A stretch of DNA of 64,000 nt. Origin: Novosphingobium sp. Fuku2-ISO-50. GTDB lineage: Bacteria > Pseudomonadota > Alphaproteobacteria > Sphingomonadales > Sphingomonadaceae. The notes beneath the pieces are model-generated. The model worked only from the letters and a program-made list of their open reading frames with translations, made no database searches and was not told the origin of the DNA. Positions 10,867 to 54,273 of the stretch are shown one piece after another. Position 1 is the first letter of the stretch. Each line of letters starts with the position of its first letter. Made by a program: the position numbers and the translations under genes. The stretch covers positions 248,001 through 312,000 of the forward strand of contig NZ_KQ954285.1 of assembly GCF_001519055.1 (NCBI RefSeq). The letters run 5' to 3'.

Positions 10867-11803
10867 CATCGACGAGGCTCCCGATGGTGCAGGAATCGAG
10901 ATTGTCGATGTTGACGTGCGCGCATGGGTTGAGGCGGCGCGTCCCAATCCCGACCGCTATCGCGATCGCCAGGTCACAGAGATTGTGTTGGCGTCGATCG
11001 GTATTGCGCCAGACCTAAAGAAGGCACTGGTCCTCAAGGGTGGCGCGGTGATGGCCTTGGCCTTCAAAAGCGAGCGGGTGACCGGTGATGTTGATTTCAG
11101 CGCCAACGCCGATCCCGAGGCCTTTGCCAAGCTGGTGGTCAACGAGCTGAATGGCTTGCTCCCGAGAACAGCTATAACCCTTGGATATCTTGATTTGCTG
11201 TGCCGGGTGCAATCGGTGAAAAAGATGCCCAAGGCTCGAAACTTTGAGGATCATGATTTTCCGGCGCTGTTGGTTCGGATTGGCTCCGCCCGACGCGGCA
11301 CAGCGGAGGAAAAGCGGTTCGAGGCCGGGCAGGCATCCCGCGTGCTCGATATGGAAATCAGCTTCCGCGACCAGGTTTATGCCTTTCAGGAGTTGAATCT
11401 GGCAGATGCCGGCGTGGCCGTCAGGGCATTCACCCTCCATGAGATCATTGCCGAAAAATTCAGAGCCTTGCTCCAGCAGCCGGTGCGAAACCGCTATCGG
11501 CGCCAGGATGTCTATGACATCGCCTTTCTTGTCGCGGGCAACGCCCTCATGGACGACGACAGGGCGAAGATTCTGGCGACGTTGATCGAGAAGTGCCGCA
11601 CCCGCAGGATCGAGCCAACTGCCACCTCCATCGATGACCCCGAGGTCGTACGCCGCGCCCGCGCGGACTGGGATACCCTCAAGCTGGAATTATCCGACCT
11701 GCCGCCATTCGATGAGAGGTTCGCGATCGTGCAGGAGCTCTATGTGTCGCTGCCTTGGCGCGGCTACCCCAGTCTTGACCGCAGAACCCACGCCCGAGAT
11801 TAG
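10859..11803 (+). CDS. abiEii: AbiEii-type nucleotidyltransferase toxin
   Basis: 314 residues of the AbiEii/MenT nucleotidyltransferase family, whose members stop growth during phage infection by modifying nucleic acids such as tRNA. The polymerase-beta-like motifs are visible: KGGAVMALAF (K60-G62), then VTGDVDFS with the metal-binding pair D77 and D79. A later conserved stretch EKFRALLQQPVRNRYRRQDVYDIAFL is given here in pieces: EKFRALL at about 199 and RRQDVYDIAFL at about 215. ATG 10859 overlaps the antitoxin gene. The catalytic residues look intact, so the toxin is probably active and held in check by AbiEi. Confidence 0.85.
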   Translation: MYDIDEAPDGAGIEIVDVDVRAWVEAARPNPDRYRDRQVTEIVLASIGIAPDLKKALVLKGGAVMALAFKSERVTGDVDFSANADPEAFAKLVVNELNGLLPRTAITLGYLDLLCRVQSVKKMPKARNFEDHDFPALLVRIGSARRGTAEEKRFEAGQASRVLDMEISFRDQVYAFQELNLADAGVAVRAFTLHEIIAEKFRALLQQPVRNRYRRQDVYDIAFLVAGNALMDDDRAKILATLIEKCRTRRIEPTATSIDDPEVVRRARADWDTLKLELSDLPPFDERFAIVQELYVSLPWRGYPSLDRRTHARD

Positions 11804-12121
11804 AGGATCAGTCTGGCAGCCGTCGTCCGGCCATGAGCAAGTGCGGCTTTGGCCAAAAGGTTGGGATGAGGAATATCGTCCTTTTGGACGGACGATAGGC
11901 CAACCATCCGCGATCTTTTGGCTTTCACCCGGCGCACTGGGGGGCTTAATTGGGGGCCAGTTAAAAATGGTTTTTAATTTAAATATTTAAAATCAAAATC
12001 ATAGTGGAATTTTTCGATTCCGTCCCCGCTTCCCAACAGCTTGCAATCACGACAGCGGCGTAACGCCGTGGCGATCAAGCGGTCGTTCCGGTCGGCCGGC
12101 ACGACGGGTAATTCATGGAAC
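11804..12121. other. Right end of the element and junction
   Basis: 318 bases without a gene. Contains an AT-rich tract (11960-12010), one GGGGGCCA copy at 11952-11959, and the right attachment repeat at 12013-12028. The remaining 90 bases are chromosomal and show no clear signal apart from being the 3' side of the next gene. Confidence 0.6.
12013..12028 (+). repeat. attR core
   Basis: TTCGATTCCGTCCCCG, identical to tRNA-Phe positions 7558-7573. The tRNA sequence does not continue beyond it (GGCACCA is absent), so this is the displaced attachment half. Confidence 0.88.
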
Positions 12122-36200: not shown

Positions 36201-36881
36201 GCCATCGCCGAACACTTGCACTTCGATATGGCGCGCGCGCGCGACATAGCGTTCGAGAAACACCCCGCCATGGCCGAAATTGCCCGCGCCAAGCCGCGCG
36301 ACCATGGCAAAGGCCTCGGCCAGTTCGCTTTCATCGTGGCAGACTTTCATGCCGATCCCGCCGCCGCCTGCCGTGGCCTTGAGGATCACCGGATAGCCGA
36401 TCCGCGCCGCCTCGACCGCCGCCGCTGCGGCATCGGTCAACAGGCCCGAGCCCGGCGCCAGCGGCACGCCATGCGCCTGTGCCAGATCGCGCGCGGTATG
36501 CTTGAGGCCAAAGGCGCGGATATTATCCTGCGTCGGCCCGATGAAGACGATCCCCGCCCTGTCGCACGCTTCGGCAAAGCCGGTGTTTTCCGACAGGAAG
36601 CCATAGCCGGGATGGATCGCCTCGGCCCCGGTCGCTTTCGCTGCGGCCAGGATCGCCTCGACGTTCAGATAGCTCTCGCCCGCCGGAGCCGGGCCGATCG
36701 GCACCGCCTCGTCGGCCAGCGCGACATGGCGCGATCCGGCATCGGCCTCGCTGAACACCGCGACCGAGGCAATGCCCATGGCGCGCAAGGTGCGGATGAT
36801 GCGGCAGGCGATGGCGCCGCGATTGGCGATCAGGACTTTGGCGAACGGCAAGGGAGTCCGGGTCATGGCAATCTGGGTCAT
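33219..36881 (-). CDS. Urea carboxylase family enzyme, probably guanidine carboxylase
   Basis: 1220 residues, ATP- and biotin-dependent. Order: biotin carboxylase domain (about 1-450; KVLIANRGAIACRI, ATP-grasp loop ATAGGGGIGMKV, EVNTRLQVEHGVTE), KipA/KipI-like carboxyltransferase domains (about 465-1090), and a biotinyl domain with the biotin Lys at K1184 (AMKMECP). No urease is near. The presence of two DUF1989 genes under the same promoter type makes guanidine the more likely substrate, as shown for other carboxylases in this context; urea cannot be excluded from the sequence. It starts right after the ABC ATPase stop. Confidence 0.93.
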   Translation of the reverse strand: MTQIAMTRTPLPFAKVLIANRGAIACRIIRTLRAMGIASVAVFSEADAGSRHVALADEAVPIGPAPAGESYLNVEAILAAAKATGAEAIHPGYGFLSENTGFAEACDRAGIVFIGPTQDNIRAFGLKHTARDLAQAHGVPLAPGSGLLTDAAAAAVEAARIGYPVILKATAGGGGIGMKVCHDESELAEAFAMVARLGAGNFGHGGVFLERYVARARHIEVQVFGDGEGHVVALGERDCSLQRRNQKVVEETPAPHLPAATRAALIEAALRLTSGAKYRSAGTVEFLYDAIRDDFFFLEVNTRLQVEHGVTEQVTGVDLVEWMIRGAAGDFAFLDGFVAQPQGHSIQVRLYAEDPSRDFQPSSGRLIEVAFPDGDRATLRVDGWVESGSEVPAWYDPMLAKLIVTAPSREEAIVALQSALDATRLAGIETNLRWLRAVVRDDVFVSGQVSTRALADFAWQPSSIRVLTAGAATTVQDYPGRTGLWDVGVPPSGPMDALSFRLGNRLLGNPEGAAGLEITAAGPVLQFLGAARICLTGAECGATLDGIAVPRWTPVAVAAGQVLRVGRVQGGGLRACLLFAGGLDAPLYLGSRSAFTLGEFGGHAGRAVMTGDMLHLFGEATGAEAMLPAALVPAIGHEWSVRVLYGPHGAPDFFTPGDVAMICETPWKVHYNSNRTGVRLVGPKPEWARRDGGEAGLHPSNIHDNAYAIGAVDFTGDMPIILGPDGPSLGGFVCPFVVIQADLWKVGQLSPGDTVRFAPVSEAEARDAERAQDAMVATLAAPAPFTGERTPPTSPVLHTIAADGARPTATYRRQGDRHLLVEYGPIVLDLELRLRVHALMMELDRLALPGVIDVTPGVRSVQIHYDARLLNQGALMDALIAAEERLGGLDDFAIPSRVVHLPLSWQDPAIYQTIDKYICAVRDDAPWCPDNIEFIRRVNGLETIEDVKRIVFDADYLVLGLGDVYLGAPVATPVDPRHRLVTTKYNPARTWTPPNVVGIGGAYMCVYGMEGPGGYQLFGRTIQVWNTWVGSGKQADAFRDGKPWLLRFFDRIRFFPVSHDELTEWRRDFPLGRRAIHIEEGLFRLSDYRAFRETHADSITAFETTRQAAFDEERARWQESGEFDRVAALVEAGSGAGGDDAAIDVPPGSELVEAPFGGSVWKLLAGEGRAVAAGEPIAVIEAMKMECPVASPSAGVVRRVYVSEGQVIQPGAAMLAIEPA

Positions 36882-37652
36882 TCAGGCGCTCTTCGCATGG
36901 GGTTCCGCGCTGACCTTGCGCAACAAGGGCACGTCGTAGGTCGCGGTGGCACCGTAGCGGTGCGGGGCATGGGGATCGTGGCGCCGCTTGTCGAAAGCGA
37001 GCACGCGCGTACCGAGCTTGAACGCCTCGGTAATGTCATGCGTGACCATGATCACGGTCAGCCCGTGTTCGCGCCACAGGCGGCTGACGAGTTCGTGCAT
37101 GTCGGCGCGAATGCCGGGATCGAGCGCGCCGAACGGTTCGTCGAGCAAGAGCACGCGCGGATGCTTGACCAGCGCCTGCGCCAGCGCCAGCCGCTGTTGC
37201 ATGCCGCCCGACAACTGCGCCGGATACTGATCGCGCGCATGGGTGAGGCCGACGGCTTCGAGCATGGCTTCGGCCTCGGCCAGCGCGGCACGGCGGCGCG
37301 CGCCAAACAGGCGCCCCATGATCGGCGCGGCGGCGCATTCGAGCCCGAACAGCACATTGCCGATCACCGTCAGATGCGGAAACACCGAATAGCGTTGAAA
37401 CACCACCCCGCGATCGGGGCCGCATTCGGCGCGCATCGGCTCTCCATTCAGCAGGATCTGCCCCCGACTGGGCGCTTCCTGCCCGAGGATCAGCCGCAGG
37501 AATGTGCTCTTGCCCGCGCCCGAAGGCCCCACGACAGAGACGAACGCGCCTTCGGCAATGGTCAGATCGACGCGTTCGAGCACGACTTTGTCGCCGTATT
37601 CGACCCAGACATTGCGCATTTCGAGCAGCGGCGGCTTTCCGGTCTCGCTCAT
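36882..37652 (-). CDS. ABC transporter ATP-binding protein
   Basis: 256 residues of the nitrate/sulfonate/taurine-type ABC ATPases. Walker A GPSGAGKST (about residue 42), Q-loop VVFQRYSVFPHLTV, signature LSGGMQQRLALAQAL, Walker B VLLLDEPFGALD, and H-loop MVTHDITEA are all present. The start ATG overlaps the permease stop by four bases. Energises uptake by the adjacent permease and lipoprotein. Last transporter gene before the carboxylase, matching the usual urea-carboxylase-associated ABC cassette. Confidence 0.93.
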   Translation of the reverse strand: MSETGKPPLLEMRNVWVEYGDKVVLERVDLTIAEGAFVSVVGPSGAGKSTFLRLILGQEAPSRGQILLNGEPMRAECGPDRGVVFQRYSVFPHLTVIGNVLFGLECAAAPIMGRLFGARRRAALAEAEAMLEAVGLTHARDQYPAQLSGGMQQRLALAQALVKHPRVLLLDEPFGALDPGIRADMHELVSRLWREHGLTVIMVTHDITEAFKLGTRVLAFDKRRHDPHAPHRYGATATYDVPLLRKVSAEPHAKSA

Positions 37653-38467
37653 CGTGCGCCTCCCCCGGCCCAGGGAAAGGCTCGGCGCGACAGCATCTGC
37701 AACAGCGCATCGGCGGCAATCGCCAGCAGCGAAATCCACGCCACATAAGGCAGGATGATGTCCATCGCGAGATAGCGCCGCACAAGGAAGATGCGATAGC
37801 CGAGCCCGACATCCGATGCGATCGCCTCTGCCGCGATCAGGAACACCCAGGCCGGGCCCATCGACAGCCGCAGCGTTTCGATCAGGCGCGGCATCATCTG
37901 CGGCAAGGCGACCCGGATCGCCACGACCCACGAATTGGCGCCCAGCGTTTCCGCCTTGATGAACTGTTCGGCGGGCAGCCCCGCGACATACGACGCCAGA
38001 TCGCGAGTCATGTAAGGCGCGATACCGATCGCGATCAGCGCGATCTTGGCCGTTTCGCCCAGCCCCAGCGCGATGAACAGGATCGGCAGCACCGCGATCG
38101 GCGGGATCACCGCGATCACCGTGATCATCGGCCCGAGAATCGCGCGCGCGAGCGGCATGACCCCCAGCAAAAGGCCGATCACCAGCGCCGACACCGTCGC
38201 CAGCGCCAGCCCCGCGCCCAGCCGGGACAGGCTGGCCAGCGTATCGGCGAGCAGCGTGATCTGGCCGGTGACCGGATCGACTTGCGCCGCCATGTGCCAG
38301 ATCGCCGCGCCCATCGCGCCCAGCGTCGGCAGGACTTTGTCCGCCGGATTGTCGGCATGGCGCAGCGCGGCGGCCAGCGCATAGGCCAGACACAGCAGCA
38401 GGATCGGGATGGCCCCGGCCACGATGCGTCCGCGTCGGCTGGGCCGCAGATTGATGAGGCGGGTCAT
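37649..38467 (-). CDS. ABC transporter permease
   Basis: 272 residues with about six transmembrane helices. The EAA loop is visible (KAETLGANSWVVAIRVALPQ). Belongs to the SsuC/TauC/NrtB-type permeases. ATG 38467 is preferred because AGGAG precedes it; an ATG 12 codons upstream would add a polar leader. Overlaps the ATPase gene. Together with the lipoprotein and ATPase it forms an importer probably dedicated to the carboxylase substrate. Confidence 0.92.
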   Translation of the reverse strand: MTRLINLRPSRRGRIVAGAIPILLLCLAYALAAALRHADNPADKVLPTLGAMGAAIWHMAAQVDPVTGQITLLADTLASLSRLGAGLALATVSALVIGLLLGVMPLARAILGPMITVIAVIPPIAVLPILFIALGLGETAKIALIAIGIAPYMTRDLASYVAGLPAEQFIKAETLGANSWVVAIRVALPQMMPRLIETLRLSMGPAWVFLIAAEAIASDVGLGYRIFLVRRYLAMDIILPYVAWISLLAIAADALLQMLSRRAFPWAGGGAR

Positions 38468-38509
38468 CGCGGCGTCACTCCTTGTCGCAGGGTGCGATTG
38501 CAAACGGGC

Positions 38510-39619
38510 TCAGAGCTTTCCGTCGGCGGCGAGCTGCATATAGGTCGCATCGTAGCGCAGCTTGACATTGGCCGGATCGCCCAGCGTCTTGCCGCCGGGA
38601 AAGGCAATCCCGATCGCATCGACCGTAGTCGCGCCCGGTCCGAACTGCCCCTTGGCAAAGGCAAACTGGCGCACGCGGTCGGTAACGGTCATCAACTCGG
38701 CGCTCTTGGCCAAAGCGGTCGCGTCGGCGGCGGTGTAATAGAGGTGCGTCGTCTTGAGCTGCGCATCAAAGCCGTCGGGCGTGCTGCCCGCATCATGCGC
38801 CATCTGTGCGCGCGCTGCCTTTCCGGCGGCATCGTCCTTGTGCATCAGGGCCATCGTTTCATACCAGATTCCGGCGAGCGCCTTGCCCAGCGCGGGATTG
38901 GCCTTGAGCGTCGCGCTGCTGACCGCGAGACAGTCAAGAATCTCGTTGGGGATCTGGTGGCTGTCGAACACCAAAGTCGCGCCCGGCGCCTTTTTCACTT
39001 CGGACAATTGCGGGTTCCAGGCGACCACGGCATTGACCGTCGGCGAGGCAAAGGCGCCGACGATGTCGGCATCGCCGGTGTTGACGAGCTTCACATCCGA
39101 CAGCTTGAGCCCGGCCTTTTCGAGCCCGCGCGCCAAGAGATATTGCGACACCGACAGCTCGACCAGATTGACCGAGCGGCCCTTGATGTCGGCCATCGAA
39201 TGCGCATTCTTCAGCACGACGCCGTCGTTGCCGTCGGAATAGTCGCCCAAAATCACCACCGAGGTATCCTTGCCCCCGGCGGCGGGAATGGTCAGCGTGT
39301 CCATCGATGTCGCGACCACGCCGTCAAGCTTGCCTGCGGTATACTGATTGACCGATTCGACGTAGTCGTTGACTTGCACCAGCTTGATCGAAATGCCGTA
39401 TTTATCGGCCCATTTCTTCACGATCCCGGCCTCTTGCGCATAAGGCCAGGGCATCCATCCGGCATAGATCGACCAGCCGATGGTAAAGTCCTTCTTCGGC
39501 GCCTCGCTCGCGATCCCGTCAGCCCCGGCGGCGGGCCCGCTTTTCGAATGCCCGCAGGCAGCCAGTGCGAACAGACCGGCAAGAGCGAGCGAGCGGACAA
39601 GGCGGGAAGAGCGGATCAC
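38510..39619 (-). CDS. ABC transporter substrate-binding lipoprotein
   Basis: 369 residues. The start is GTG 39619 with AAAGGA nine bases upstream, giving a lipoprotein signal peptide with lipobox LAAC (Cys22); the longer open frame upstream runs through the promoter and is rejected. The mature protein is a NrtA/SsuA/TauA-like binding protein (FTIGWSIYAGWMPWPYAQEA, ATSMDTLTIPAAGGKDTSVV). First gene of the operon, 52 bases from the shared -10-like box. In related clusters these are annotated as urea-carboxylase-related transporters; the true ligand is unproven. Confidence 0.92.
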   Translation of the reverse strand: MIRSSRLVRSLALAGLFALAACGHSKSGPAAGADGIASEAPKKDFTIGWSIYAGWMPWPYAQEAGIVKKWADKYGISIKLVQVNDYVESVNQYTAGKLDGVVATSMDTLTIPAAGGKDTSVVILGDYSDGNDGVVLKNAHSMADIKGRSVNLVELSVSQYLLARGLEKAGLKLSDVKLVNTGDADIVGAFASPTVNAVVAWNPQLSEVKKAPGATLVFDSHQIPNEILDCLAVSSATLKANPALGKALAGIWYETMALMHKDDAAGKAARAQMAHDAGSTPDGFDAQLKTTHLYYTAADATALAKSAELMTVTDRVRQFAFAKGQFGPGATTVDAIGIAFPGGKTLGDPANVKLRYDATYMQLAADGKL

Positions 39620-39670
39620 GGCAGAGAATCCTTTTGTCGTGGTTGATCGAGAGGTGCCCCATCGGCAGGC

Positions 39671-39722
39671 CATCACGCTAGAGCCTGATTTGTGATTGGG
39701 GGCATAGAAATCATCTATGCCC
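39671..39722 (-). promoter_or_regulatory. Operator/promoter module of the ABC-carboxylase operon
   Basis: Inverted repeat with 9-bp arms (GGGCATAGA at 39700-39708 and TCTATGCCC at 39714-39722) around AATCA. On the minus strand TCTAGCGTGATG (39682-39671) follows after 18 bases. It lies just after the stop of the LysR gene, whose product is the obvious candidate to bind here and at 29371-29391. Confidence 0.78.
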
Positions 39723-39729
39723 TGCATCC

Positions 39730-40668
39730 TCATGGATGAGGTCGCGCACGCAGGCGGCGCAGGATCTCTTCAAGGAACAATTGCGTCGGCGTGTCGCGCG
39801 TCGGAATCTGCCGCGAGAGGAGATAGATGTCATAGGCCGGTTCTGCATCGCGCGGCAAAAGCGGCCAGAGCCGATCGCGCGCGACAAGGTCTTCGGCCGC
39901 AAGCACCGGCAGAAACCCGATCCCCACCCCCAGGCTGATCAGGCGCTTGGCCTCGTGCACGTCTTCGGCCAGGCCGTTGACCACCGTGCCCAGGCCATAG
40001 CGCTGGCGCAGGCGGGTGATCGTGTCGAGCTCGTCGGTGCCGGTCAGCACGAAGCCCTGATCGCGCAAGTCGTTCAGGCGAGAGATCCGCTGGCCATAGA
40101 GCGGGTGATTGCGGTCGCAATAGAGCTGCTGCACTTCGACGAACAGCGGTTCGTAATTGAGCCCGACGCGCACCCCGCTGTCACAGCCGACGCCGATTTC
40201 GACTTCGCCGCGTTCGAGCGCTTCGAGCACGTCGCGCCAGGGCGATACGCGCAGTTCGATCTGGATCGCGGGATGACGACGGCGAAACGTGGCAATCGCT
40301 TCATCGAATTCGGGCGAGACGATCGACGAGATCATCTGGATGCGGACCAGCCCCTGGACCTGCTTCATCGCCTGCGCGACCTGATGCGGCACCATCCGCG
40401 CCGCTTCGAACATGTCTTCGCAAATCAGCAGGAGCGCGCGGCCCGCAACGGTCAATTCGACCCCGCCCGCCGACCGGCGCAGCAATTGCGTGCCGACATG
40501 ATCTTCCAGCCGCTTCAACGCGACACTGATCGTCGGTTGCTGACGATTGAGCTTGCGCGCGGCGGCGCCGATCCCGCCCGCGCGGACGATCTCGACAAAT
40601 GTGCGCAACAGGTTCCAGTCGACACGCGCGGCGAAATTGCGGTCGATACGGGCAGCAGGATCGGACAT
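39730..40668 (-). CDS. LysR-family regulator of the putative guanidine regulon
   Basis: 312 residues: winged HTH (AARKLNRQQPTISVALKRLE, about residues 30-50) and a LysR effector domain (EIGVGCDSGVRVGLNYEPLF, ISLGVGIGFLPVLAAEDL). ATG 40668 is chosen; a GTG three codons earlier is possible. It lies directly upstream of the ABC-carboxylase operon on the same strand, eight bases from the operator palindrome. Because the same palindrome precedes the TonB-DUF1989 operon, this protein is inferred to control both. Confidence 0.9.
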   Translation of the reverse strand: MSDPAARIDRNFAARVDWNLLRTFVEIVRAGGIGAAARKLNRQQPTISVALKRLEDHVGTQLLRRSAGGVELTVAGRALLLICEDMFEAARMVPHQVAQAMKQVQGLVRIQMISSIVSPEFDEAIATFRRRHPAIQIELRVSPWRDVLEALERGEVEIGVGCDSGVRVGLNYEPLFVEVQQLYCDRNHPLYGQRISRLNDLRDQGFVLTGTDELDTITRLRQRYGLGTVVNGLAEDVHEAKRLISLGVGIGFLPVLAAEDLVARDRLWPLLPRDAEPAYDIYLLSRQIPTRDTPTQLFLEEILRRLRARPHP

Positions 40669-42259: not shown

Positions 42260-43156
42260 TCAGGCCCACCGCTTGGTCAGCTTGAGCTTTTCGCGCACTT
42301 CGGCCGGGCCGAGCAGGCGCGCGCCCATGCCTTCGAGAATCTGCCGCGCACGCGACACGAGATCGCCGTTGCTGGCCAGCTGCCCGCGCCCGAGATAGAG
42401 ATTGTCTTCCAGCCCGACACGCACGTTGCCCCCCGCCAGCGCCGCCATCGCCACATAGGGCAACTGCATCCGGCCGATCGAAAAGCCGCTGAAAATCGCG
42501 CCCGCAGGCATGCGGTGCACCATCGCCATCGTCGTCAGCGGATCGTCGGGCGCGCCATAGGGGATGCCCATGCACAACTGGATCATCACCGGATCGTCGA
42601 GCAGGCCTTCCTTGATCAGCTGCTTGACGAACACGAGATGGCCCGTGTCAAACACTTCGAGTTCGGGCCGCACGCCCAGTTCCTGCACCCGCTGGGCCAT
42701 CGCGCGCAGCATGCCCGGCGTGTTGGTCATGACATAGTCGCCTGCGGCAAAGTTCATCGTGCCGCAATCGATCGTGCAGATTTCGGGAAGCAGTTCCTCG
42801 ACATGGATCAGCCGTTCGAGCGGCCCGACCATGTCGGTGCCTTCCGGATTGAGCGGCAGCGGAGTCTCGCCCGGGCCGAACACGATGTCGCCGCCCATCC
42901 CGGCGGTCAGGTTGATGATGACATCCTTGCCCGAATCACGGATGCGCTCGACCACTTCGCGATAGAGTTTCGGATCGCGCGCGCCCTTGCCCGTTTCGGG
43001 ATCGCGCACATGGATATGCGCGATCGCCGCGCCCGCATCGGCGGCCTCGATCGCGGCGGCGGCGATCTGTTTCGGCGTGATCGGCAGGCCGGGATGCTTG
43101 TCGGCGGTTTCGCCCGACCCGGTCACCGCGCACGTAATGAAGGGTTCGTAATTCAT
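42260..43156 (-). CDS. 3-dehydrocarnitine cleavage enzyme (BKACE, DUF849)
   Basis: 298-residue zinc TIM-barrel of the beta-keto acid cleavage family. Condenses 3-dehydrocarnitine with acetyl-CoA to yield betainyl-CoA and acetoacetate. Motifs: [20 protein letters not shown], the metal-binding [13 protein letters not shown] and the [13 protein letters not shown] strand. ATG 43156 matches the family start. Placed before the carnitine dehydrogenase-thioesterase gene with a 2-base gap, which fixes the substrate assignment within this otherwise diverse family. Confidence 0.92.
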
Positions 43157-43249
43157 GGGTTCTGTCCGTCCGTTGCTCTTGTGCCGAGGATACCGCGCGC
43201 CCCGCATCAAGGGCCACGTTTTACGATCAGGCGCACACAATTTGCGACA

Positions 43250-46200
43250 TCAGCGCGCCTGGATCGGTTCCTCGCCCACCGCGCGCGACGGCACCCCCTG
43301 ATAGCGCAGGCCGGGAAGCAGGTGTTCGCGTTTCATCACCACGCTGTTGGCGCCCAGATGCGTGCGCTCGTCGATCATCGCGCCATAAAGCGGCACCGTG
43401 CCGCGCGACAGCGTTGCCCCCGCACCGATCCGCACCCGATCGACTTTCAACACCCGGTCTTCAAAAGTATGCGCCTGAAACATCGCGCTGACCGTGGCAT
43501 GATCGCCGATCTCGATCATGTCGGGATCGACCACTTGCGCAAAGGGCGGCCCCAGCACTGCGCGACGCCCGATTTTCAGCCCCATCGCGCGCAGATAGAC
43601 CGGCAACAGGAATGTGCCTTCGAGCCGACGCAGGATCGTCGCGGCATAGCGCGCCCAAGCGACATAGACATAGTCCCACCGGCTGCACCAGCATGACCAC
43701 AACGCATGCTGCCCCGGCTTGACCCGCCCGATCAGCAGCCATTTGAGCGCCAGCACGGCGAGGCACAAGGCGACAAGCGGCATCAGCGTCACCGCCGGGA
43801 TCACCAGCGCAGCGTAGGCCAGCGGCGAGACCGTGCCCCGCGCCGCGCTCAACGCCATGAACCATTCCGCCGTCAGCACCATCGGCAGCACCGGCAGGGC
43901 AAAGCGCAAGGCTTCCCAGAACACCCGGTTGGCATAGCGGATCGGCGAGGGATCGAACGTCAGCCGTCGGTCGACTTCGATCACTTCGCGGCGCGGCAGG
44001 TCGAAACTGGGATGGCCGAACCTCGCCTCGCCCGACGCGATCTCGGTGGCGCGGGCGGGCGTGGCAATCCCGATCAGAATGTCATCGGGAAGCTGTTCGC
44101 CGGGCGGAATGACCACATGGTTGCCCAGAAACGTAAGGCGCCCGATCCGGGTATGGCCCAGCCGCACCGTGCCCTGGCGAACGATCCCGCCGCCAAGATA
44201 GATTCCGTCGGCAAAGAAGGTTTCGGCGCCGATCGCGACCAATTCGGGCACGACATCGGTGATCGTGCTGATTTCGCACTTTTCGCCGATGTCCATCCCC
44301 GCCAGCCGCAGCCAGCGCGGCCAGAACACGGTCCCGGTCAGCCATTCGCCGGCCAGAGTCAGCATCCCCGCCTTGAGCCAGGCCCGCAGATAGGCAAGGC
44401 TCCAGCGCGACACCAGACCGGGCCGCACCGGCCCCATCGCCCGCATCAGCACCGCCGTCCACACCAGCGTCAGCGGCAGCGACAGCACGGTCACGATCAG
44501 CACGACGGCCCCTGCCCGCGTGGCAAACGTCGGATGCCAGGCCCAGCGCCACAGATCGGCCGCACGCGTGCCCGTCACCACACAGATCAGCAGCGCCAGC
44601 CCTTGCGCCGGCAGCGCGGCTGCAAAGGCAAGCCCCGCTTCGGCGCCCATCGCCAGGACGTCCCACACAGCATGCGGCAGGCCATCGGATACCGGCGCGG
44701 GCGACGCTGGCGACGGGCCGACCGATTTTGCCGGCACCCCGTCCCAGATCTCGCCGTCGGGAATGGCCATGCCCGGATTGAGCACCGACAGCGCGGTCAA
44801 CACACTGTCCCGCCCCATCCGGCACCAGCCGCCGATCCCCGATCGGGTCAGCATGGTCGCCCCCGCTTCGAGCACGATCGGCCCGATGACGACATCGCCC
44901 CGGTCGAGATCGGCCAGCCCGATCATCGCGTCCTGTCCGATCGCCACGCCATCGCCGATGTCGAGCAAATCCCACCCGCCGCGCACCAGATCGACGCCGC
45001 GATGGATATGCACCCCGCGCCCGATCCGCGCGCCGAGCGCACGCAGGATCCCCTGTTGCAGCCCCGACCCCTGCAGCAGCGGCCAGGGGATCAGCCGCGC
45101 GGCCTGCACCACGATCCAGTGGCGCAGATACCACCCGCTCCACACCCGCGCACGGATCGGCCGATAGCGCCCGATCAGCACGCGTTTGACAAGCACCGCA
45201 AAGATCACCGAAAACGGGAGATACAGCGCCAGCGACAGCGCCGCGATCAACGGCATCACAGCCACGAGACCGATCGGCCCCAGCTCACCGTAGACCGCCG
45301 GAAACACCCGGAATGCCATCAGCCAGCCGAGCCAGCCCGACAGGCACAGCTCTGATGCCAGCCAGCCGATCTGCACCGCATTGGCCAGCCCCACGCGCAC
45401 CGTGCCGACGCGCGGCTGATCCAGCTCGGCAGGCGGCGCCAGCCCGCCCTCGCACAGGGCATGCGCCTGCCGCGCCAGCGCACGCACGGTGCGCGCCTCG
45501 TAAATGTCGCTGACTGTGGCCCAATTGGTGCGGCTGTCGTCGCGCAACAGCGTGACCAGCAGCGCGGCGCTGAGCGAATCCCCGCCCAGGTCGGCAAAGA
45601 AATCGTCCTCGACCGAAACGCCGCCATCGCGGCGCAGCACATCGGCGACAGCCGCAGCGATCAGCCCCTCCATCTCGCCGACCGGCGCAATCATCGGGCG
45701 CGACCCGGCATTGAGGGCCAAAGTCAGCAAGGGCAGGCGTGCGCGGTCGAGCTTGCCCCCGACACTGGTCGGCAAATCGGTGATCACGCCGATCTGCACC
45801 GGCACCATATAGCCGGGCAGATTGCGCGCCAGCGCGGCGCGCAACAGATCGGGCTCTGGCGGGCGCGACAGATCGTCGGGCACGACAAAGCCGACCAGCT
45901 CGCTTCCCCTGCCGCTCGGCTGCATCCGGCACGCCGCCGCACGCACGCCTGCCAGCGCGCCCAGCCGCGCCTCGATCTCGCCCAGTTCGACGCGATAGCC
46001 GCGAATCTTGACCTGGGCGTCGATCCGCCCGTGATAGAAGACCGTGCCGGCTTCATCGCGATCGACCAGATCGCCGGTGCGATAGATCCGCCCCAGCCGG
46101 GGATGATCGACAAATTTTTCGGCCGTCAGGTCGTCGCGATGGCGATAGCCGCGCGCCACACCCGCGCCGCCGATGCACAATTCGCCCTGCCTGCCCGGTT

Positions 46201-47329
46201 CGCTCTGCCCGCCCGGTTTACCATGCGCGCCCGCCGGCACTTCGTTCAGCGCCTCGTCAAGCACCCAGGCCACCATGCCCGGCACCGGCCGCCCGATCCC
46301 CACCGGCTGCCCCGGCACGACATCGCAGCGCAGGCACGTCACCGCGCATTCGGTCGGGCCATAGCCATTGACCATGCGCCGCCCGGCAGACCACAGATCG
46401 GCCAGATCCTGCGGCAAGGCCTCGCCCCCGACATAGAGCAGGCGCAGATCGGGCAAGGCCGATTGCGGATCGGCACAGCCCGATGCGCGCAGCAAAGTCG
46501 GCGGCGGGCAGAACACGGTAACGCGTTCGTCCTGCAACCAGCCGACCACATCGGGGCCAAGCCGCGCCGTCGCGTCGTCCATCACCACCAGCGTCGCGCC
46601 CGAAGCGAGCGCCAGCCACATTTCCTCCAGCGAGGAATCATATGCGGCAGACGACCCCTGCACCACGCGGTCGCCCGGCCCGAGGCCGAATTCGGCAAGG
46701 TCCGAGGCGATGAGATTGGCGATATGGCGGTGTTCGACCTCCACCCCCTTGGGCTTGCCGGTCGTGCCCGAGGTATAGATCACATAAGCCAGCCGCGAGG
46801 GCGCCAGATCGTCGGGCAAGGCCACATCGGGCGCCGCCGCGCGCGCCAGCGCCGCAGCATCGAGCACCAGCCCCGGCGCAAGCCCCAGGCGATCGAGCCG
46901 TTCGAGCCCGTCCGCATCGGCCAGCACCGCCACCGGCGCGGCATCGTCGAGAATTTCGCCCATGCGCTCGTCGGGAAACGCGGCATCGAGGCAGGTAAAT
47001 GCGCACCCTGCGCGCAAAACCCCGATCTGTGCCGCATAAAGCAGCGGCGAAGTCCGCCCGATCAACAGCGCGACAATCGGCTCGCTCCCGGCCCGCCCCG
47101 CCATGGGCCCGGCCATGCGCCCGGCCATGCGCCCGACCAGATGCTGCGCGATCCGCGTCGCCAGCGCGTCAAGCTCGCCATAAGACAGGACTTGCCGCTC
47201 CGCCCGATCGCGCCCCGGCGGCACGTCGATCGCCGGTGCAAGGCGATCGCGCGCCAACGGTCCGCCCAAAAAGGCGTGCAGCAGGCCGCGCAGCGACCCG
47301 CGCGCGTTCAGACGCTCGACTGTATTCAT
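43250..47329 (-). CDS. Pls/PosA-type single-module NRPS (poly-amino-acid synthetase family)
   Basis: 1359 residues. An adenylation domain (about 45-535; AYVIYTSGTTGKPKGVEVEH, NGYGPTE, YRTGDLV, GGKLDRARLP with K526) is followed by a carrier domain with phosphopantetheine Ser585 (LGGDSLSA). The remaining 700 residues alternate pairs of membrane helices (about 655-713, 890-962, 1140-1198) with three left-handed-beta-helix-like soluble domains (about 765-870, 1010-1100, 1245-1345). This A-T-(TM2-C)x3 plan is that of epsilon-poly-lysine synthetase Pls and relatives, which polymerise one amino acid without a condensation or thioesterase domain. Monomer unknown. Divergent from an NCS1 permease. Confidence 0.9.
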   Translation of the reverse strand: MNTVERLNARGSLRGLLHAFLGGPLARDRLAPAIDVPPGRDRAERQVLSYGELDALATRIAQHLVGRMAGRMAGPMAGRAGSEPIVALLIGRTSPLLYAAQIGVLRAGCAFTCLDAAFPDERMGEILDDAAPVAVLADADGLERLDRLGLAPGLVLDAAALARAAAPDVALPDDLAPSRLAYVIYTSGTTGKPKGVEVEHRHIANLIASDLAEFGLGPGDRVVQGSSAAYDSSLEEMWLALASGATLVVMDDATARLGPDVVGWLQDERVTVFCPPPTLLRASGCADPQSALPDLRLLYVGGEALPQDLADLWSAGRRMVNGYGPTECAVTCLRCDVVPGQPVGIGRPVPGMVAWVLDEALNEVPAGAHGKPGGQSEPGRQGELCIGGAGVARGYRHRDDLTAEKFVDHPRLGRIYRTGDLVDRDEAGTVFYHGRIDAQVKIRGYRVELGEIEARLGALAGVRAAACRMQPSGRGSELVGFVVPDDLSRPPEPDLLRAALARNLPGYMVPVQIGVITDLPTSVGGKLDRARLPLLTLALNAGSRPMIAPVGEMEGLIAAAVADVLRRDGGVSVEDDFFADLGGDSLSAALLVTLLRDDSRTNWATVSDIYEARTVRALARQAHALCEGGLAPPAELDQPRVGTVRVGLANAVQIGWLASELCLSGWLGWLMAFRVFPAVYGELGPIGLVAVMPLIAALSLALYLPFSVIFAVLVKRVLIGRYRPIRARVWSGWYLRHWIVVQAARLIPWPLLQGSGLQQGILRALGARIGRGVHIHRGVDLVRGGWDLLDIGDGVAIGQDAMIGLADLDRGDVVIGPIVLEAGATMLTRSGIGGWCRMGRDSVLTALSVLNPGMAIPDGEIWDGVPAKSVGPSPASPAPVSDGLPHAVWDVLAMGAEAGLAFAAALPAQGLALLICVVTGTRAADLWRWAWHPTFATRAGAVVLIVTVLSLPLTLVWTAVLMRAMGPVRPGLVSRWSLAYLRAWLKAGMLTLAGEWLTGTVFWPRWLRLAGMDIGEKCEISTITDVVPELVAIGAETFFADGIYLGGGIVRQGTVRLGHTRIGRLTFLGNHVVIPPGEQLPDDILIGIATPARATEIASGEARFGHPSFDLPRREVIEVDRRLTFDPSPIRYANRVFWEALRFALPVLPMVLTAEWFMALSAARGTVSPLAYAALVIPAVTLMPLVALCLAVLALKWLLIGRVKPGQHALWSCWCSRWDYVYVAWARYAATILRRLEGTFLLPVYLRAMGLKIGRRAVLGPPFAQVVDPDMIEIGDHATVSAMFQAHTFEDRVLKVDRVRIGAGATLSRGTVPLYGAMIDERTHLGANSVVMKREHLLPGLRYQGVPSRAVGEEPIQAR

Positions 47330-47552
47330 ATGACCCTAGCTTTTCGCCTATCACCCGGCGTTCGTTCGGAACCGGGCGTTTGTCAACCCGACGCCCATGC
47401 ACCACCGGCGGCCAGGGCGCGATGCGCGCGCGTCCCGCCTTTTTCCCGCACAATACACCTGCCCCCTTTCGCCTGCGATCGCAGTCGGGCATGCATTGCG
47501 TTTGGGGCGCATTTTTGCGCCCCTGCGATCCCGCTTGCGCCAAAGGCTCCCG

Positions 47553-50211: not shown

Positions 50212-51195
50212 TCAGGCGTTTGCGAGCGGCGGCGTTTTCCACCGGCCCCGTTCTGCGCCGGGCGGGCGGCCAAATTTCTGGACATAGGCGCGGGCCATTG
50301 CGCTCTTTGACGAAAAGCCGGTGGCCACCGCGACCTCGATCAGCGACAGGCTCGTTTCGGCAAGGAAACTGCGCGCGCGCTCCAGCCGGATGGCGCGGTA
50401 ATAGGCCGCCGGGCCCGTGCCGAAATGGCCCATGAACAACCGTTCGAGCTGTCGCCGGGTGACCCCTGCCTCGGCGGCGAGGTCTTCGAGCCGACAGGGG
50501 CTTTCGATTTCCGCCTCCATCCGCGCGATCACCGCGACCAGACGCGGATCGCGCGTACCGATGCGCGCGCCCAGATCGAGCCGCTGCCGCTCTTCACGGC
50601 TGCGGATGCGGCTGTGAATGAACTGTTCCGACACCGCGCGCGCAAGGCCCGGCCCCTGTCGCAGCGCGATGCGTTCGAGCATCATGTCGATCGCCGCCGT
50701 CCCCCCGGCGCACGTAAACAGCCGTTCGCCAAGGCAGAACAATTCCTCGGTCACGCGCACCTCGGGATAGTCCTCGCGAAAGGCAGGGACCGCTTCCCAA
50801 TGCAGCGTCACCGGCTGATCGCGGATCAACCCCGCCTCGGCCAGGACATAGGCCCCGGTGTCGAGCGCACCGAGCGCGACACCGCGCCGCGCCATGCGCC
50901 GCAAGGCCGCGACCAGCGAGCGGCTGATTCCCCGGCGCGGTTCGAACCCGGCGCACAGGATCAGCGTCTGCGTATTTTCATCAAGCGGGCCGTCGACGGC
51001 GACTTTCAACCCGCACGAGGCTTCGACCGGCTGACCGTCGGCGGAAAACAACCGCCAGGCGAAAACCGGCCGCTGCGCCAGTCGGTTGGCCACGCGCAAG
51101 GGTTCCATCGCCGCGACGAAGCCCATCGCGGAAAAGCCCGGCACGAGGTAAAAGCTGTAGGTTTCCTGCTCCAGCGGAGCGAATGCGACATTCAT
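50212..51195 (-). CDS. GlxA/CdhR-type AraC-family regulator with DJ-1/PfpI domain
   Basis: 327 residues. The N-terminal 190 residues are a DJ-1/PfpI (GATase-1-like) effector domain (FSAMGFVAAMEPLRVANRLA, LILCAGFEP). The C-terminal 100 residues are two AraC HTH motifs (LEDLAAEAGVTRRQLERLF, ... VAVATGFSSKSAMARAY). CdhR and GbdR, the carnitine and glycine-betaine regulators of pseudomonads, have this architecture, matching the genes around. ATG 51195 is the first Met of the conserved domain. Divergent from the oxygenase operon; repeats in the gap are likely its sites. Confidence 0.9.
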   Translation of the reverse strand: MNVAFAPLEQETYSFYLVPGFSAMGFVAAMEPLRVANRLAQRPVFAWRLFSADGQPVEASCGLKVAVDGPLDENTQTLILCAGFEPRRGISRSLVAALRRMARRGVALGALDTGAYVLAEAGLIRDQPVTLHWEAVPAFREDYPEVRVTEELFCLGERLFTCAGGTAAIDMMLERIALRQGPGLARAVSEQFIHSRIRSREERQRLDLGARIGTRDPRLVAVIARMEAEIESPCRLEDLAAEAGVTRRQLERLFMGHFGTGPAAYYRAIRLERARSFLAETSLSLIEVAVATGFSSKSAMARAYVQKFGRPPGAERGRWKTPPLANA

Positions 51196-51248
51196 GGATC
51201 GGGAGACAAACACAGATTCGCGTGAGCGCAAAACCCGTTTTGGCCTGT

Positions 51249-51304
51249 GGCAAGGTATATTTGCCGAAGTCGCAAAATACGCGCATCATGTCGCAAAGCT
51301 GCGA
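51249..51304. promoter_or_regulatory. Repeats in the regulator-oxygenase gap (candidate AraC-type operators)
   Basis: GGCAA-N7-TTGCC (51249-51265); direct repeat GTCGCAAA at 51269-51276 and 51290-51297, exactly 21 bases apart (two helical turns); and the inverted repeat TCGCA-AAGC-TGCGA (51291-51304). A further direct repeat GCTCGAATCAA lies at 51346-51356 and 51362-51372. Helical phasing is typical for AraC-family sites. Assignment to the adjacent regulator is inferred. Confidence 0.5.
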
Positions 51305-51386
51305 TAGCAGAGCGGTTTCAGAGTTAGACTACCCGCCATCATACAGCTCGAATCAATCAGGGCTCGAATCAACTGGGGATTGCGGC

Positions 51387-52496
51387 ATGGATCTACAGGT
51401 CACCGAGCAGGGTCGATTGCAGGTCACCAGCAGCGGGGCAGAGCCCTTGGTGCTGCATCCGATCTGGCTGCGCGAGCGCCTGCCCGATGCGGCGGTGCTC
51501 GATCCGCGCACCGGGCAACGGCTGGAAGAAGCCGCCGAAACCCCGACCGATCTGCGCGTCACGGCCGCCGAACTCGATGGCACGATCACCTTTTCCGACG
51601 GGTTTGCGACCCGCCTGCCCGCCGCCTGGCTGGCCGGGGCGATCATCGGCGAACCGGCGCATGGCGGCCATGTACATTGGGACGGCACGCTCGATCATGC
51701 CGCTTTCCCGGCGGCCGATCTTGCCGACTTGCGCCGCGATCCGGCAACGCTCGGGCGCTTGCTCGACGGGCTCGATGCCTATGGCTTTGCCGTGGTGCGC
51801 GGCGTTCCGCTCGACATGGACGGGGGGCTGGAATTTGCCGACCTGATCGGCCCGATCCGCCGCACCAACTGGGGCGGTGTGGCCGATGTCAAGGCGATCC
51901 CCAATGCCTATGACCTGACCATGACGCCGCGTCATCTCGAACCGCACAGCGACAATCCCTATCGCGAGCCGGTGCCCGGCTATATCCTGCTGCATTGCCT
52001 GACCAACGACGCCGATGGCGGGGATTCGACGCTGGTCGACGGATTTCATGCCGCCGCGATCCTGCGTCGCGACAATCCGGCGGCGTTCGAAACGCTGGTC
52101 ACCACCGATGTCACTTTCCGCTATCACGACGAGACCGCGTTTCTGGAAAACCACGGTCCGCTGATCGAATGCAACGGCGCGGGCGAAGTCGTGCAGATCC
52201 GCTATTCCAACCGCACCGAGATGATCGGGCGACTGCCGGTCGAACGGCTGGAGGCCTATTACGCCGCGCGCGCCGCGTTCTGGCGGCTGATCGCGCCGTC
52301 ATCGCCGCTCACGCTCCAATTCCGGCTGCAACCGGGCGAGCTGTTGATGATGGACAATTACCGCCTGTTGCACGGTCGCACCGGCTATACGCTGGCCACC
52401 GGGTCGCGCCACATGCGCCAATGCTATCTCGACCGCGACAGCGTCGGCAGCCGCCGCCGCCTGTTGCAGCCCGCCTGCCTGTTGCAGCCTGCCTGA
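51387..52496 (+). CDS. Fe(II)/2-oxoglutarate oxygenase, TmpA-like / gamma-butyrobetaine hydroxylase family
   Basis: 369 residues. The double-stranded beta-helix core carries the iron triad H187-x-D189 (EPHSDNP) and H329 (YRLLHGRTGY), with the 2-oxoglutarate Arg region GSRHMRQCYLD. The N-terminal 90-residue domain has the fold of gamma-butyrobetaine hydroxylases but lacks the zinc-binding cysteines that the paralogue at 53083 keeps. It is followed 14 bases later by an HD-type oxygenase gene, the exact order of tmpA-tmpB, whose products cleave 2-(trimethylammonio)ethylphosphonate to glycine betaine and phosphate. The C-terminus ends in a tandem LLQPA duplication. Confidence 0.85.
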   Translation: MDLQVTEQGRLQVTSSGAEPLVLHPIWLRERLPDAAVLDPRTGQRLEEAAETPTDLRVTAAELDGTITFSDGFATRLPAAWLAGAIIGEPAHGGHVHWDGTLDHAAFPAADLADLRRDPATLGRLLDGLDAYGFAVVRGVPLDMDGGLEFADLIGPIRRTNWGGVADVKAIPNAYDLTMTPRHLEPHSDNPYREPVPGYILLHCLTNDADGGDSTLVDGFHAAAILRRDNPAAFETLVTTDVTFRYHDETAFLENHGPLIECNGAGEVVQIRYSNRTEMIGRLPVERLEAYYAARAAFWRLIAPSSPLTLQFRLQPGELLMMDNYRLLHGRTGYTLATGSRHMRQCYLDRDSVGSRRRLLQPACLLQPA

Positions 52497-52510: not shown

Positions 52511-53077
52511 ATGTTCCGCCATTTCGACGAAGCCACCGCCGAGGACTGGAAGCCGATCGGCGAAAAGTTCGATGCGTTCCAGACCGGGCTGGTCGGCCAG
52601 TTGGTCACGCATCTGCGCCTGCTCGCCACGCACGACCTCGGCTATCCGGTCGATCGCTATATCCATTCGCTGCAGACCGCGACGCTGGCGCTGCGCGACG
52701 GGGCAGACGATGAAATGGTCGTCTGCGCCTTGCTGCACGACATCGGCGACACGCTCGCCCCGGTCAATCACGGGGCGATGGCTGCCGCGATCATGGCGCC
52801 CTACATTTCCCCGCTCAATGCCTGGATGATCGAACATCACGAGGAATTTCAAGGCTTTTTCTACGCCGAGTATTTCGGCGGCGACAAGCATGCGCGCGAC
52901 AAATACCGCGATCACCCCGCCTTTGCCCGCACCGCGCGGTTTACCGACGCATGGGATCAAAAGGCGTTCGATCCCGATTACGACACCCTGCCGATCGAGG
53001 CGTTCCTGCCGGCGCTGGAAACGATCTTTTCCCGCAAGCCCTGGGGCGACCATACGCGCGCCAATCAAGAGGACTGA
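52511..53077 (+). CDS. HD-domain protein, TmpB/PhnZ-like mixed-valent diiron oxygenase
   Basis: 188 residues. HD-fold metal ligands: H52 (YIHSLQTATLA), H76-D77 (LLHDIGD), H87 (VNHG), H110 (EHHEEFQG) and D146 (FTDAWDQ). The HSLQTA motif and the 24-residue spacing of the first two ligands match PhnZ-type carbon-phosphorus-cleaving diiron oxygenases rather than ordinary HD phosphohydrolases. The gene starts at ATG 52511 with AAGGAG upstream. Paired with the TmpA-like gene, it likely cleaves a hydroxylated product, such as 1-hydroxy-trimethylaminoethylphosphonate. The alternative is myo-inositol-oxygenase-like cleavage of another hydroxylated amine. Confidence 0.83.
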   Translation: MFRHFDEATAEDWKPIGEKFDAFQTGLVGQLVTHLRLLATHDLGYPVDRYIHSLQTATLALRDGADDEMVVCALLHDIGDTLAPVNHGAMAAAIMAPYISPLNAWMIEHHEEFQGFFYAEYFGGDKHARDKYRDHPAFARTARFTDAWDQKAFDPDYDTLPIEAFLPALETIFSRKPWGDHTRANQED

Positions 53078-53082
53078 CGCCC

Positions 53083-54273
53083 ATGACTATCGAGCTTGAA
53101 ATCGTTCAGGACTGGCGCGTGTTTGCCACCGACCACAGCCTTGCCGGCGTTGCGCTGAGCGGCGACGATACCGTGGTGAGCTGGAGCGACGGCCGCGAAA
53201 CCGCGTTTCACCGCTTTTTCCTGCGCGACAATTGCCCCTGTTCGCAATGCTACCTGCCGCTGACGCGCGAACAACTGTTCGAAGTGACCGACGCGCCCGC
53301 CGATCTTGCCGTGCACAGCGCCGCGATCAGCGCCGCCGGCGATCTGATCATCGGCTGGACCGACGGTCATGCCAGCCGCTACGCCCCCGGCTGGCTGCGC
53401 GCCCATGCACCCGACGCACAAAGCCGCGCCGAGCGCCACGCCGCACGCGCGCAGCCGTTCATCTGGGGCCGCGAATATGCCGATGCGCTGCAATCGTTCG
53501 ACTATGGCGACATCATGGCCGACGACGGCGCGCTCTGGACCTGGCTCAGCGCGCTCAAGTCGTCGGGGCTGACTCTGATCCGCAACGTGCCGGTCGAAGA
53601 AGAAGCGCTGCTCGGCCCGATTGCGCGAATTTCGCACTTGCGCGAAACCAATTTCGGCCGCGTGTTCGATGTGAAGTCGAAACCGCGCGCCGACAGCGCC
53701 GCCTATACCAGCGTCAACCTGCCCGCGCATACCGACTTGCCCACGCGCGAATTGCAGCCGGGGGTACAATTCCTGCACTGCCTGCAAAACGAAGCGACTG
53801 GCGGCGAAAGCGTGTTTGTCGACGGCTTTGCCATCGGCGAAGCGATGCGCAAGCACCATCCGGGCGAATTCGCCACGATCACCACCACGCCGATGGCCTT
53901 CTGGAACCGCGACGATCGCACCGATTACCGCTGGAGCGCACCGGCCATCGCGCTGAATGACGAAGGCGATCTCGACGAAGTGCGCTTTGCCAATTTCCTG
54001 CGCGGGCCGATCGACGCCCCGGCGGAAAAAATGGGCGATATTTATGCCGCGCTGCGCCTGTTTCAGGCGATGACGCGCGATCCGAAGTATTTCATCGAAC
54101 GCCGTCTGGCGCCCGGCGATATGTGGGCGTTTGACAACCGCCGCGTGATGCATGCACGACGCGAATTCGACCCGCAGACCGGCTCGCGCCATCTGCAGGG
54201 TGCCTATGTCGATCGCGACGAAATCAATTCGCGCTGGCGCGTGCTGTCGCGCCAGTTGGGAGAACCCTGCTGA
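53083..54273 (+). CDS. Gamma-butyrobetaine hydroxylase-like 2-oxoglutarate oxygenase
   Basis: 396 residues. The N-terminal domain has the zinc site of bona fide gamma-butyrobetaine hydroxylases (C51, C53, C56 in LRDNCPCSQC, plus a downstream His near residue 96). The catalytic domain has H216-x-D218 (PAHTDLP), H357 (NRRVMHARREF) and the 2-oxoglutarate Arg region GSRHLQGAY. It could convert gamma-butyrobetaine to L-carnitine, feeding the carnitine genes at 40.8-43.2 kb; trimethyllysine is another option. Five bases after the HD gene, with AGAGGA as ribosome site; overlaps the aldolase start by one base. Confidence 0.86.
   Translation: MTIELEIVQDWRVFATDHSLAGVALSGDDTVVSWSDGRETAFHRFFLRDNCPCSQCYLPLTREQLFEVTDAPADLAVHSAAISAAGDLIIGWTDGHASRYAPGWLRAHAPDAQSRAERHAARAQPFIWGREYADALQSFDYGDIMADDGALWTWLSALKSSGLTLIRNVPVEEEALLGPIARISHLRETNFGRVFDVKSKPRADSAAYTSVNLPAHTDLPTRELQPGVQFLHCLQNEATGGESVFVDGFAIGEAMRKHHPGEFATITTTPMAFWNRDDRTDYRWSAPAIALNDEGDLDEVRFANFLRGPIDAPAEKMGDIYAALRLFQAMTRDPKYFIERRLAPGDMWAFDNRRVMHARREFDPQTGSRHLQGAYVDRDEINSRWRVLSRQLGEPC

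Follow-up and report, generated by a model that had tools for sequence, protein, structure and literature searches.

Related synthetases

The synthetases of epsilon-poly-L-lysine (Pls) and of delta-poly-L-ornithine (PosA, from Acinetobacter baumannii) carry an adenylation (A) domain, a carrier (T) domain and a terminal membrane domain on one chain. The characterised products of this group are few in number and are diamino-acid polymers (Patel & Gulick 2023, PMC10522769). Here we describe a relative of these enzymes, encoded at 43250..47329 on the minus strand of a stretch of 64,000 nucleotides from Novosphingobium sp. Fuku2-ISO-50 (contig NZ_KQ954285.1, positions 248,001 to 312,000), which we call the window. 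We read the protein as a homopolymer synthetase that is complete by its sequence and that uses an arginine-like cationic amino acid as its monomer, and we hold this reading with slightly better than even confidence.

The substrate pocket has been studied in PosA, where the Glu at the third code position (E221) binds the side-chain amine. This Glu has been described as conserved in all these synthetases (PMC10522769), in agreement with the first-pass annotation, which had pointed out that it also occurs in some basic-amino-acid codes. Thr304 and Ser313 assist in binding the amine, and code position 2 has been proposed to set the chain length of the substrate; both this size rule and the role of E221 come from PosA mutants (PMC10522769). 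PosA also has a low arginine activity of its own (PMC10522769). A further enzyme, Bdello_A (OFZ39577.1), comes from another lineage, the Bdellovibrionales; it shares with the window protein the A-T-terminal-domain family and the published code DSECYGGVTK, letter for letter. The assay covered its isolated A domain only, which had modest activity with L-arginine and no higher activity with any of the four known diamino substrates (PMC10522769).

The synthetase of the window

The gene and its parts are as follows.

43250..47329, minus strand: synthetase coding sequence, 1359 amino acids, ATG start; A-T-(transmembrane pair plus beta module)x3, DSECYGGVTK clade
45734..47200, minus strand: A domain, residues ~44-532 (Pfam PF00501 and PF13193; TIGR01733 above its cut-off; model; Foldseek)
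46337..46639, minus strand: nine of the ten code residues, D231, S232, E235, C274, Y299, G301, G322, V330 and T331 (alignment)
45752..45754, minus strand: tenth code residue, the lysine K526 (alignment)
45470..45661, minus strand: T domain, residues 557-620 (PF00550), with the codon of S585, the phosphopantetheine site, at 45575-45577
43289..45331, minus strand: putative C-terminal polymerisation domain, residues 667-1347, with three transmembrane pairs and three beta modules (TIGR02353 stretch, hydropathy, model, fold comparison of the first module)
43445..43477, minus strand: QAHTFEDRVLK, residues 1285-1295, a candidate catalytic stretch in which Q1285, H1287, E1290 and K1295 are conserved across clades

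The reading frame is a single one without internal stops, and the chance of a stop-free stretch of such length, given the local base composition, is about 10^-12.7. In the Pfam scan we find AMP-binding (209 bits, residues 44-395), AMP-binding_C (26.1 bits, residues 451-526), PP-binding (34.6 bits, residues 557-620) and a sub-threshold match to Hexapep; neither a condensation nor a thioesterase domain reaches E <= 0.001. The A and T domains thus lie on the same chain without a classical condensation or thioesterase domain, as in the Pls/PosA type. The phosphopantetheine serine S585 is kept in the clade and in other Pls according to the alignment.

A model of the A domain has a mean pLDDT of 80.6, which falls below 50 at residues 227-232, i.e. 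at the pocket, and its Foldseek matches are 8www, 1amu and 7wew. The last of these, 7WEW, is the A domain of the epsilon-poly-L-lysine synthetase; of the A domains with a solved structure it is one of the nearer ones (220.8 bits; 37% identical in the Foldseek alignment), and the A domain of PosA (8G95-8G98) matches with 177 bits. Both enzymes have the same layout as the window protein. The layout of A-T-(two membrane helices plus beta module)x3 that had been proposed from the letters of the DNA is borne out by Pfam, the TIGR02353 alignment, hydropathy and the model. By its motifs the window copy is read as intact and catalytically complete, that is, as a probable working enzyme.

The specificity pocket

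With the code positions assigned by the usual numbering of nonribosomal peptide synthetases, position and alignment give D231, S232, E235, C274, Y299, G301, G322, V330, T331 and K526, in short DSECYGGVTK. These are the same ten residues that the first-pass annotation had picked out by eye, all of them correctly. The mapping is supported by the rows with the code DMEHNGTVSK, which agree in the same columns with the published PosA residues (the PosA sequence itself lies outside the alignments). The window protein has Asp and Glu at positions 1 and 3 (D231 and E235) like PosA, whose pocket is otherwise different: D217, M218, E221, H260, N280, T304, V312 and S313, as compared with D-S-E-C-Y-G-G-V-T in the window (PMC10522769).

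Three features of the pocket bear on the size of the substrate. Position 2 is a Ser, as against Met in the ornithine enzyme and Ala in the epsilon-poly-L-lysine synthetase (PMC10522769); the position of Thr304 of PosA is taken by a Gly; and there is a Tyr at 299. Together they make it probable that the end of the monomer is bulkier than that of ornithine. By its code the synthetase fits the specificity group of Bdello_A, and because L-arginine was turned over by the one enzyme of this code that has been assayed, the leading candidate is L-arginine itself or a relative of it that has a guanidino group or is enlarged in some other way. Note that the pocket is already in print and is not new. The earlier suggestion of an undescribed cationic homopolymer therefore stands in one part, since a cationic homopolymer of a monomer not yet established is the best reading, and falls in the other, since the pocket had been published for Bdello_A (PMC10522769).

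On the other hand, the enzyme could be an isopeptide synthetase of the ordinary sort that has an unusual pocket but acts on one of the known types of diamino acid (lysine, a hydroxylysine or beta-lysine), in which case the arginine activity of Bdello_A would be off-target. This would agree with the diamino-acid polymers made by the characterised members of the group and with the low arginine activity of PosA (PMC10522769), and the Ser at position 2 is near in size to the Ala of the lysine enzymes. However, the four diamino substrates gave no higher activity with Bdello_A, whose code is identical (PMC10522769), and with G322 the Thr is lost that in PosA is in contact with the amine of the side chain. 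We consider this explanation rather doubtful.

Distribution of the clade

The relatives that bear a genus name come from Novosphingobium sp. FSW06-99, MD-1 and SCN 66-18 (identities of 78, 64 and 63%, respectively, over the best segment), so that the genome had rightly been called sphingomonad-like. Among 99 Novosphingobium genomes, the window's included, 19 have a match of this synthetase type at 58% identity or more. The full code can be read in 17 of the 19, with 16 cases of DSECYGGVTK and one of DSETYGGVTK. Two of the matches have one TGA inside the matched stretch; in one of these, G041, it is close to the C-terminal end and could be the natural stop codon of the gene. Two others, from draft genomes, are divided between contigs. 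These four cases are what could be said for a decaying or non-functional synthetase, an explanation that we find hardly credible: the window copy is intact, its motifs are conserved, and the code is kept throughout the readable genus genomes with a single exchange.

For the large genome samples up to two candidates were scored per genome, and the counts are therefore lower bounds. In an even sample of 398 genomes from the phylum, at least 27 genomes have a match at E <= 1e-100; of these 27, each of which was read, only G000 and G253 have the code, the latter being one further Sphingomonadaceae genus with a clade gene. In the class sample at least 10 of 385 genomes matched, and among the nine readable ones only the window's own genome has the code. 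Outside of the phylum, four Streptomyces plasmids encode a protein that is 52-53% identical over 92% of the query, with the same code in the three that were read. All four genes that we viewed lie on linear plasmids of ~220 kb and are named just "amino acid adenylation domain-containing protein" (among the proteins are WP_331748278.1 and WP_331723638.1). No clade member was found at E <= 1e-150 in 396 Actinomycetota genomes, a sample without a known positive, so that this absence shows nothing.

We calculated a tree of 60 full-length rows by a quick method. It is midpoint-rooted, so that the root is arbitrary, and was flagged for long branches and an uneven composition. We had left out near copies, rows of fewer than 1250 residues (L021/L059, L022, L023/L060, L043 and L073) and L084, which contains unread letters. 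All 22 rows with a DSEC or DSET code are on one side of a single branch (support 100, length 2.07), and the other codes are outside. DSECYGGVTK is found in 21 of these 22 rows, and the remaining one has a T at the fourth position. The occurrence of one code in Novosphingobium, in G253 and on the Streptomyces plasmids suggests that one specificity has been retained. Identity to the window protein is 34-39% for relatives that have PosA-like DMEH codes, and relatives with the Ala code DAES are found on a different branch of the tree from the window clade. The genome G090 has two synthetases, one with DSETYGGVTK and one with DMEHNGTVTK (L057 and L062), and the two pocket types suggest different products.

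A separate, well-supported branch consists of alphaproteobacterial Pls with the codes DLEDLGTVVK or DLEDIGSVVK (L077, L078, L080, L083, L085 and L087-L094). A similar code has been listed without an assigned substrate (PMC10522769).

The C-terminal domain

TIGR02353, the NCBIfam profile for the terminal domain of Pls and PosA, covers residues 667-1347 almost from end to end (E 6.6e-110, 368.5 bits, model positions 16-694 of 695). The strong hydropathy peaks form three pairs, at 661-722, 888-966 and 1136-1205; four weak peaks (1.43-1.48) are barely above the same threshold and fall within the A and T domains. Residues 632-1359 were modelled with AlphaFold2 from 10 sequences (mean pLDDT 66.3, pTM 0.71). 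The model has three repeats, each with long helices, a strand, short helices and a beta region, and is least certain in the beta regions. Foldseek gave no matches below E 0.001 for this model. With VIA-align, in a comparison that covers the first beta module alone (model residues 117-237), the module resembles hexapeptide-repeat acyltransferases (best Z 11.1, 104 residues, rmsd 3.4). The three transmembrane pairs with three beta-helix modules of the Pls/PosA type are thus found in the profile alignment, in the hydropathy plot and in a model of modest confidence, with the fold matched for the first module.

We then asked which columns are at least 95% fixed both in 38 rows of Pls with other codes and in the 22 clade rows. 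They include the motifs of the A domain, K526 and S585, and in the C-terminal part Q653, K715, R736, W738, D1041, N1070, R1247, Q1285, H1287, E1290, K1295, K1333 and E1335. Four of these residues lie within QAHTFEDRVLK, which may be part of the catalytic site.

The proposed reaction and its product

By homology, the A domain would activate one cationic alpha-amino acid as its adenylate, with D231 holding the alpha-amine and E235 the cation of the side chain. The activated amino acid would be loaded onto the phosphopantetheine of S585, and the C-terminal domain, with its three membrane-helix pairs and three beta modules, would join monomers repeatedly into a homo-oligomer at the membrane. The synthetase would be a membrane-bound single module that works like the epsilon-poly-lysine and delta-poly-ornithine synthetases. 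Substrate, linkage, product, polymerisation and role of the window synthetase are all what we infer from such comparisons.

Part of the gene calls around the orthologues are heuristic. Among the annotated neighbours (some are unannotated) we saw no gene of a diaminopropionate, diaminobutyrate or beta-lysine pathway and no other precursor gene, which suits an ordinary cellular amino acid as the monomer.

Several points weigh against the arginine-like reading. The arginine activity of Bdello_A is modest, and its authors propose a larger analogue as the real substrate (PMC10522769). It is by its code that Bdello_A would be placed in our clade. Arginine is without the primary side-chain amine that the characterised enzymes use, so that the linkage would have to run via the alpha-amine or the guanidine, or else the monomer is a different one. 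Part of the neighbours are unannotated, and a class I/II aminotransferase is found ~13 kb from the Streptomyces gene. The confidence of the C-terminal model is modest. Furthermore, the TIGR02353 score of 368.5 is below the curated equivalog cut-off of 423.1, and this is so for all four clade members tested: the three clade mates, among them the one Streptomyces plasmid protein tested, reach 358.7, 361.7 and 363.5 bits. All four tested Pls of other codes, among them the two tested relatives with DMEH codes, pass it with 538.8-854.2 bits. Several residues that are fixed elsewhere are altered in the clade. In the C-terminal domain the clade has Asp in place of Glu at 1219 and 1268, Val in place of Thr at 1267 and Tyr in place of Trp at 1343, and it lacks the prolines of 1093 and 1240; in the A domain it has Tyr in place of Phe at 230, next to D231, and Gly in place of Ser at 524, and it differs at 68, 83, 109 and 113 as well. 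Some further columns that are fixed elsewhere have changed in part of the clade only. We call the synthetase a homologue of Pls and PosA in a diverged clade of the same superfamily and, going by the equivalog cut-off, do not file it as a TIGR02353 equivalog.

This divergence (a score below the equivalog cut-off, a stem branch of 2.07 changes per column) and the likeness of the first beta module to acyltransferases would also suit a C-terminal domain that transfers the activated amino acid only once, to a lipid or another acceptor, and does not polymerise. However, the architecture is kept together with many residues that are fixed in other Pls, and no recurring acceptor-specific gene is seen among the annotated neighbours. 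Such a single transfer seems improbable to us, and repeated joining of one arginine-like monomer is the reading that we prefer.

More specifically, the clade could make a natural nonribosomal homopolymer whose unit is arginine or a different guanidino amino acid, an idea that we put forward as tentative. If it is true and the polymer is linked through the alpha-amine, poly-arginine would be a natural cell-penetrating peptide; if it is linked through the guanidine, this would be a new polymer linkage. In the literature we found nothing on a polylysine synthetase in Novosphingobium, and nothing relevant on the nonribosomal biosynthesis of a poly-L-arginine homopolymer. The idea itself is not new; new are the hosts and the extent of the clade, its gene context, its largely conserved C-terminal domain and the profile score below the cut-off in four of four members tested. 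The clade has a different and strictly kept pocket, its hosts include Novosphingobium and Streptomyces plasmids, and its tested members score too low for the curated profile by which the family is named. With it there are several proteins on which one can ask whether bacteria make a polymer like poly-arginine.

Carnitine genes beside the synthetase

Downstream of the synthetase we find the following.

43157..43249, no strand: gap between the synthetase and BKACE, with a motif of the type GATGTCGCAAAATGTG ... TTCGCAAAACG (motif comparison)
42260..43156, minus strand: beta-keto acid cleavage enzyme (BKACE), PF05853
40767..42257, minus strand: carnitine 3-dehydrogenase fused to a thioesterase (NF005716, 669.8 bits, cut-off 592)

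The start of BKACE was set to fit an orthologue of 298 amino acids. Presumably this BKACE serves carnitine catabolism, an assignment made from general knowledge and from its neighbour and not from a profile match of its own. The order after the synthetase is BKACE, carnitine 3-dehydrogenase/thioesterase, LysR, an ABC transporter of the urea-carboxylase type, urea carboxylase and an allophanate hydrolase-like amidase; on the other side there are an NCS1 permease, MFS, AraC and two TauD-family dioxygenases.

The first-pass annotation had taken the carnitine and quaternary-amine genes as a hint of an unusual amine monomer. We followed this up in 21 sphingomonad loci, two loci with PosA-like codes, one Streptomyces locus, 99 genomes of the genus and seven carnitine-gene regions. 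Besides the window, BKACE and carnitine dehydrogenase adjoin the synthetase in four of the 21 further sphingomonad clade loci (L045, L065, L067 and L069), which belong to the closest subclade. L064 keeps the NCS1 gene, and its contig stops just past the synthetase; the remaining 16 loci, some of them on short contigs, have neither gene. The two genes are thus not the constant company that would be expected of an operon. In Novosphingobium G014 the entire block (TauD, AraC, MFS, NCS1, BKACE, carnitine dehydrogenase/thioesterase, LysR, ABC transporter, urea carboxylase and amidase) is present without a synthetase match, and BKACE adjoins NCS1.

The motif GATGTCGCAAAATGTG with a second half similar to TTCGCAAAACG lies upstream of BKACE in five of six loci (the window, L045, L069, L065 and G014, but not L067; in L130 at 11650-11830) and is a possible operator of the carnitine genes. 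Because it is also found upstream of BKACE in G014, BKACE probably keeps a control of its own, and the synthetase came to adjoin it. The synthetase may have been gained beside BKACE or lost in G014.

A monomer tied to carnitine metabolism would be a quaternary amine, for example trimethyllysine. Apart from the shared neighbourhood in the window and the four loci, such a link could be seen in the co-occurrence of the dehydrogenase with the synthetase (10 of 19 genus genomes that have the synthetase, 4 of 80 that do not; Fisher p 4e-6), and in the second subclade GbcA-like, BetI-like and butyrobetaine-dioxygenase-like proteins are nearby, all of them below curated cut-offs. However, the statistic ignores shared descent; nine of the 19 genomes, some of them incomplete assemblies, have the synthetase without the dehydrogenase; and the six genomes of the second subclade that do have the dehydrogenase have it on contigs other than that of the synthetase. 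In addition, D231 expects an alpha-amino acid, and BKACE has its own upstream motif in the window. A quaternary-amine monomer is thus very unlikely. As the block occurs without the synthetase in G014 and most of the orthologues that we looked at lie elsewhere, the carnitine genes are a weak hint and were rejected as good evidence for the monomer, and what had been concluded from them is unsupported.

Some further observations concern this neighbourhood. One run on the minus strand at 31465-39733, adjoining the carnitine genes, encodes the ABC transporter (with a TIGR03427 substrate-binding protein), urea carboxylase (1798 bits) and the amidase, which has an allophanate-hydrolase C-terminal domain. 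The TauD-family dioxygenase at 51183-52496 scores 355.6 bits on the profile of the trimethylaminoethylphosphonate dioxygenase TmpA, whose cut-off is 400; the second one is at 52951-54273 (Pfam scan). Between the synthetase gene and the divergently oriented NCS1 permease gene there is an inverted repeat at 47497-47521, TGCGTTTGGGGCGCA followed by TTTTTGCGCC.

Neighbours in other subclades

In one subclade the neighbours are an S51 peptidase, a Rieske oxygenase, a permease and a butyrobetaine-dioxygenase-like protein, of which single members may lack one or another. Another subclade has pirin, PhoD and ribonucleotide reductase, and a third pair of loci has a TonB receptor, a sulfotransferase and a permease.

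The S51 (cyanophycinase-like) peptidase is encoded divergently beside the synthetase in L052 (6825-8141, minus strand), L054 (12068-13114, plus strand) and L056 (12103-13143, plus strand). For the one of these peptidases that we compared, the nearest solved structures are cyanophycinases. Relatives are found in 22 of the 99 genomes of the genus, of which 13 lack the synthetase (p 0.011, uncorrected), and none is found in the genome of the window at E <= 1e-30. Possibly the peptidase is a polymer-degrading partner of the synthetase, which we mention as a lead only.

The permease that adjoins the synthetase in L049 resembles basic amino acid/polyamine antiporters, and a cluster mate of it lies two genes away in L058. 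As its scores are far below the curated cut-offs, we did not use it as proof of arginine.

On the Streptomyces plasmids, 34 kb around one of the genes (L105) contain no match to the carnitine genes of the window. Downstream of the synthetase, at 19072-26333 of L105, there is a row of uncharacterised proteins without a Pfam match, four of which look alike by eye.

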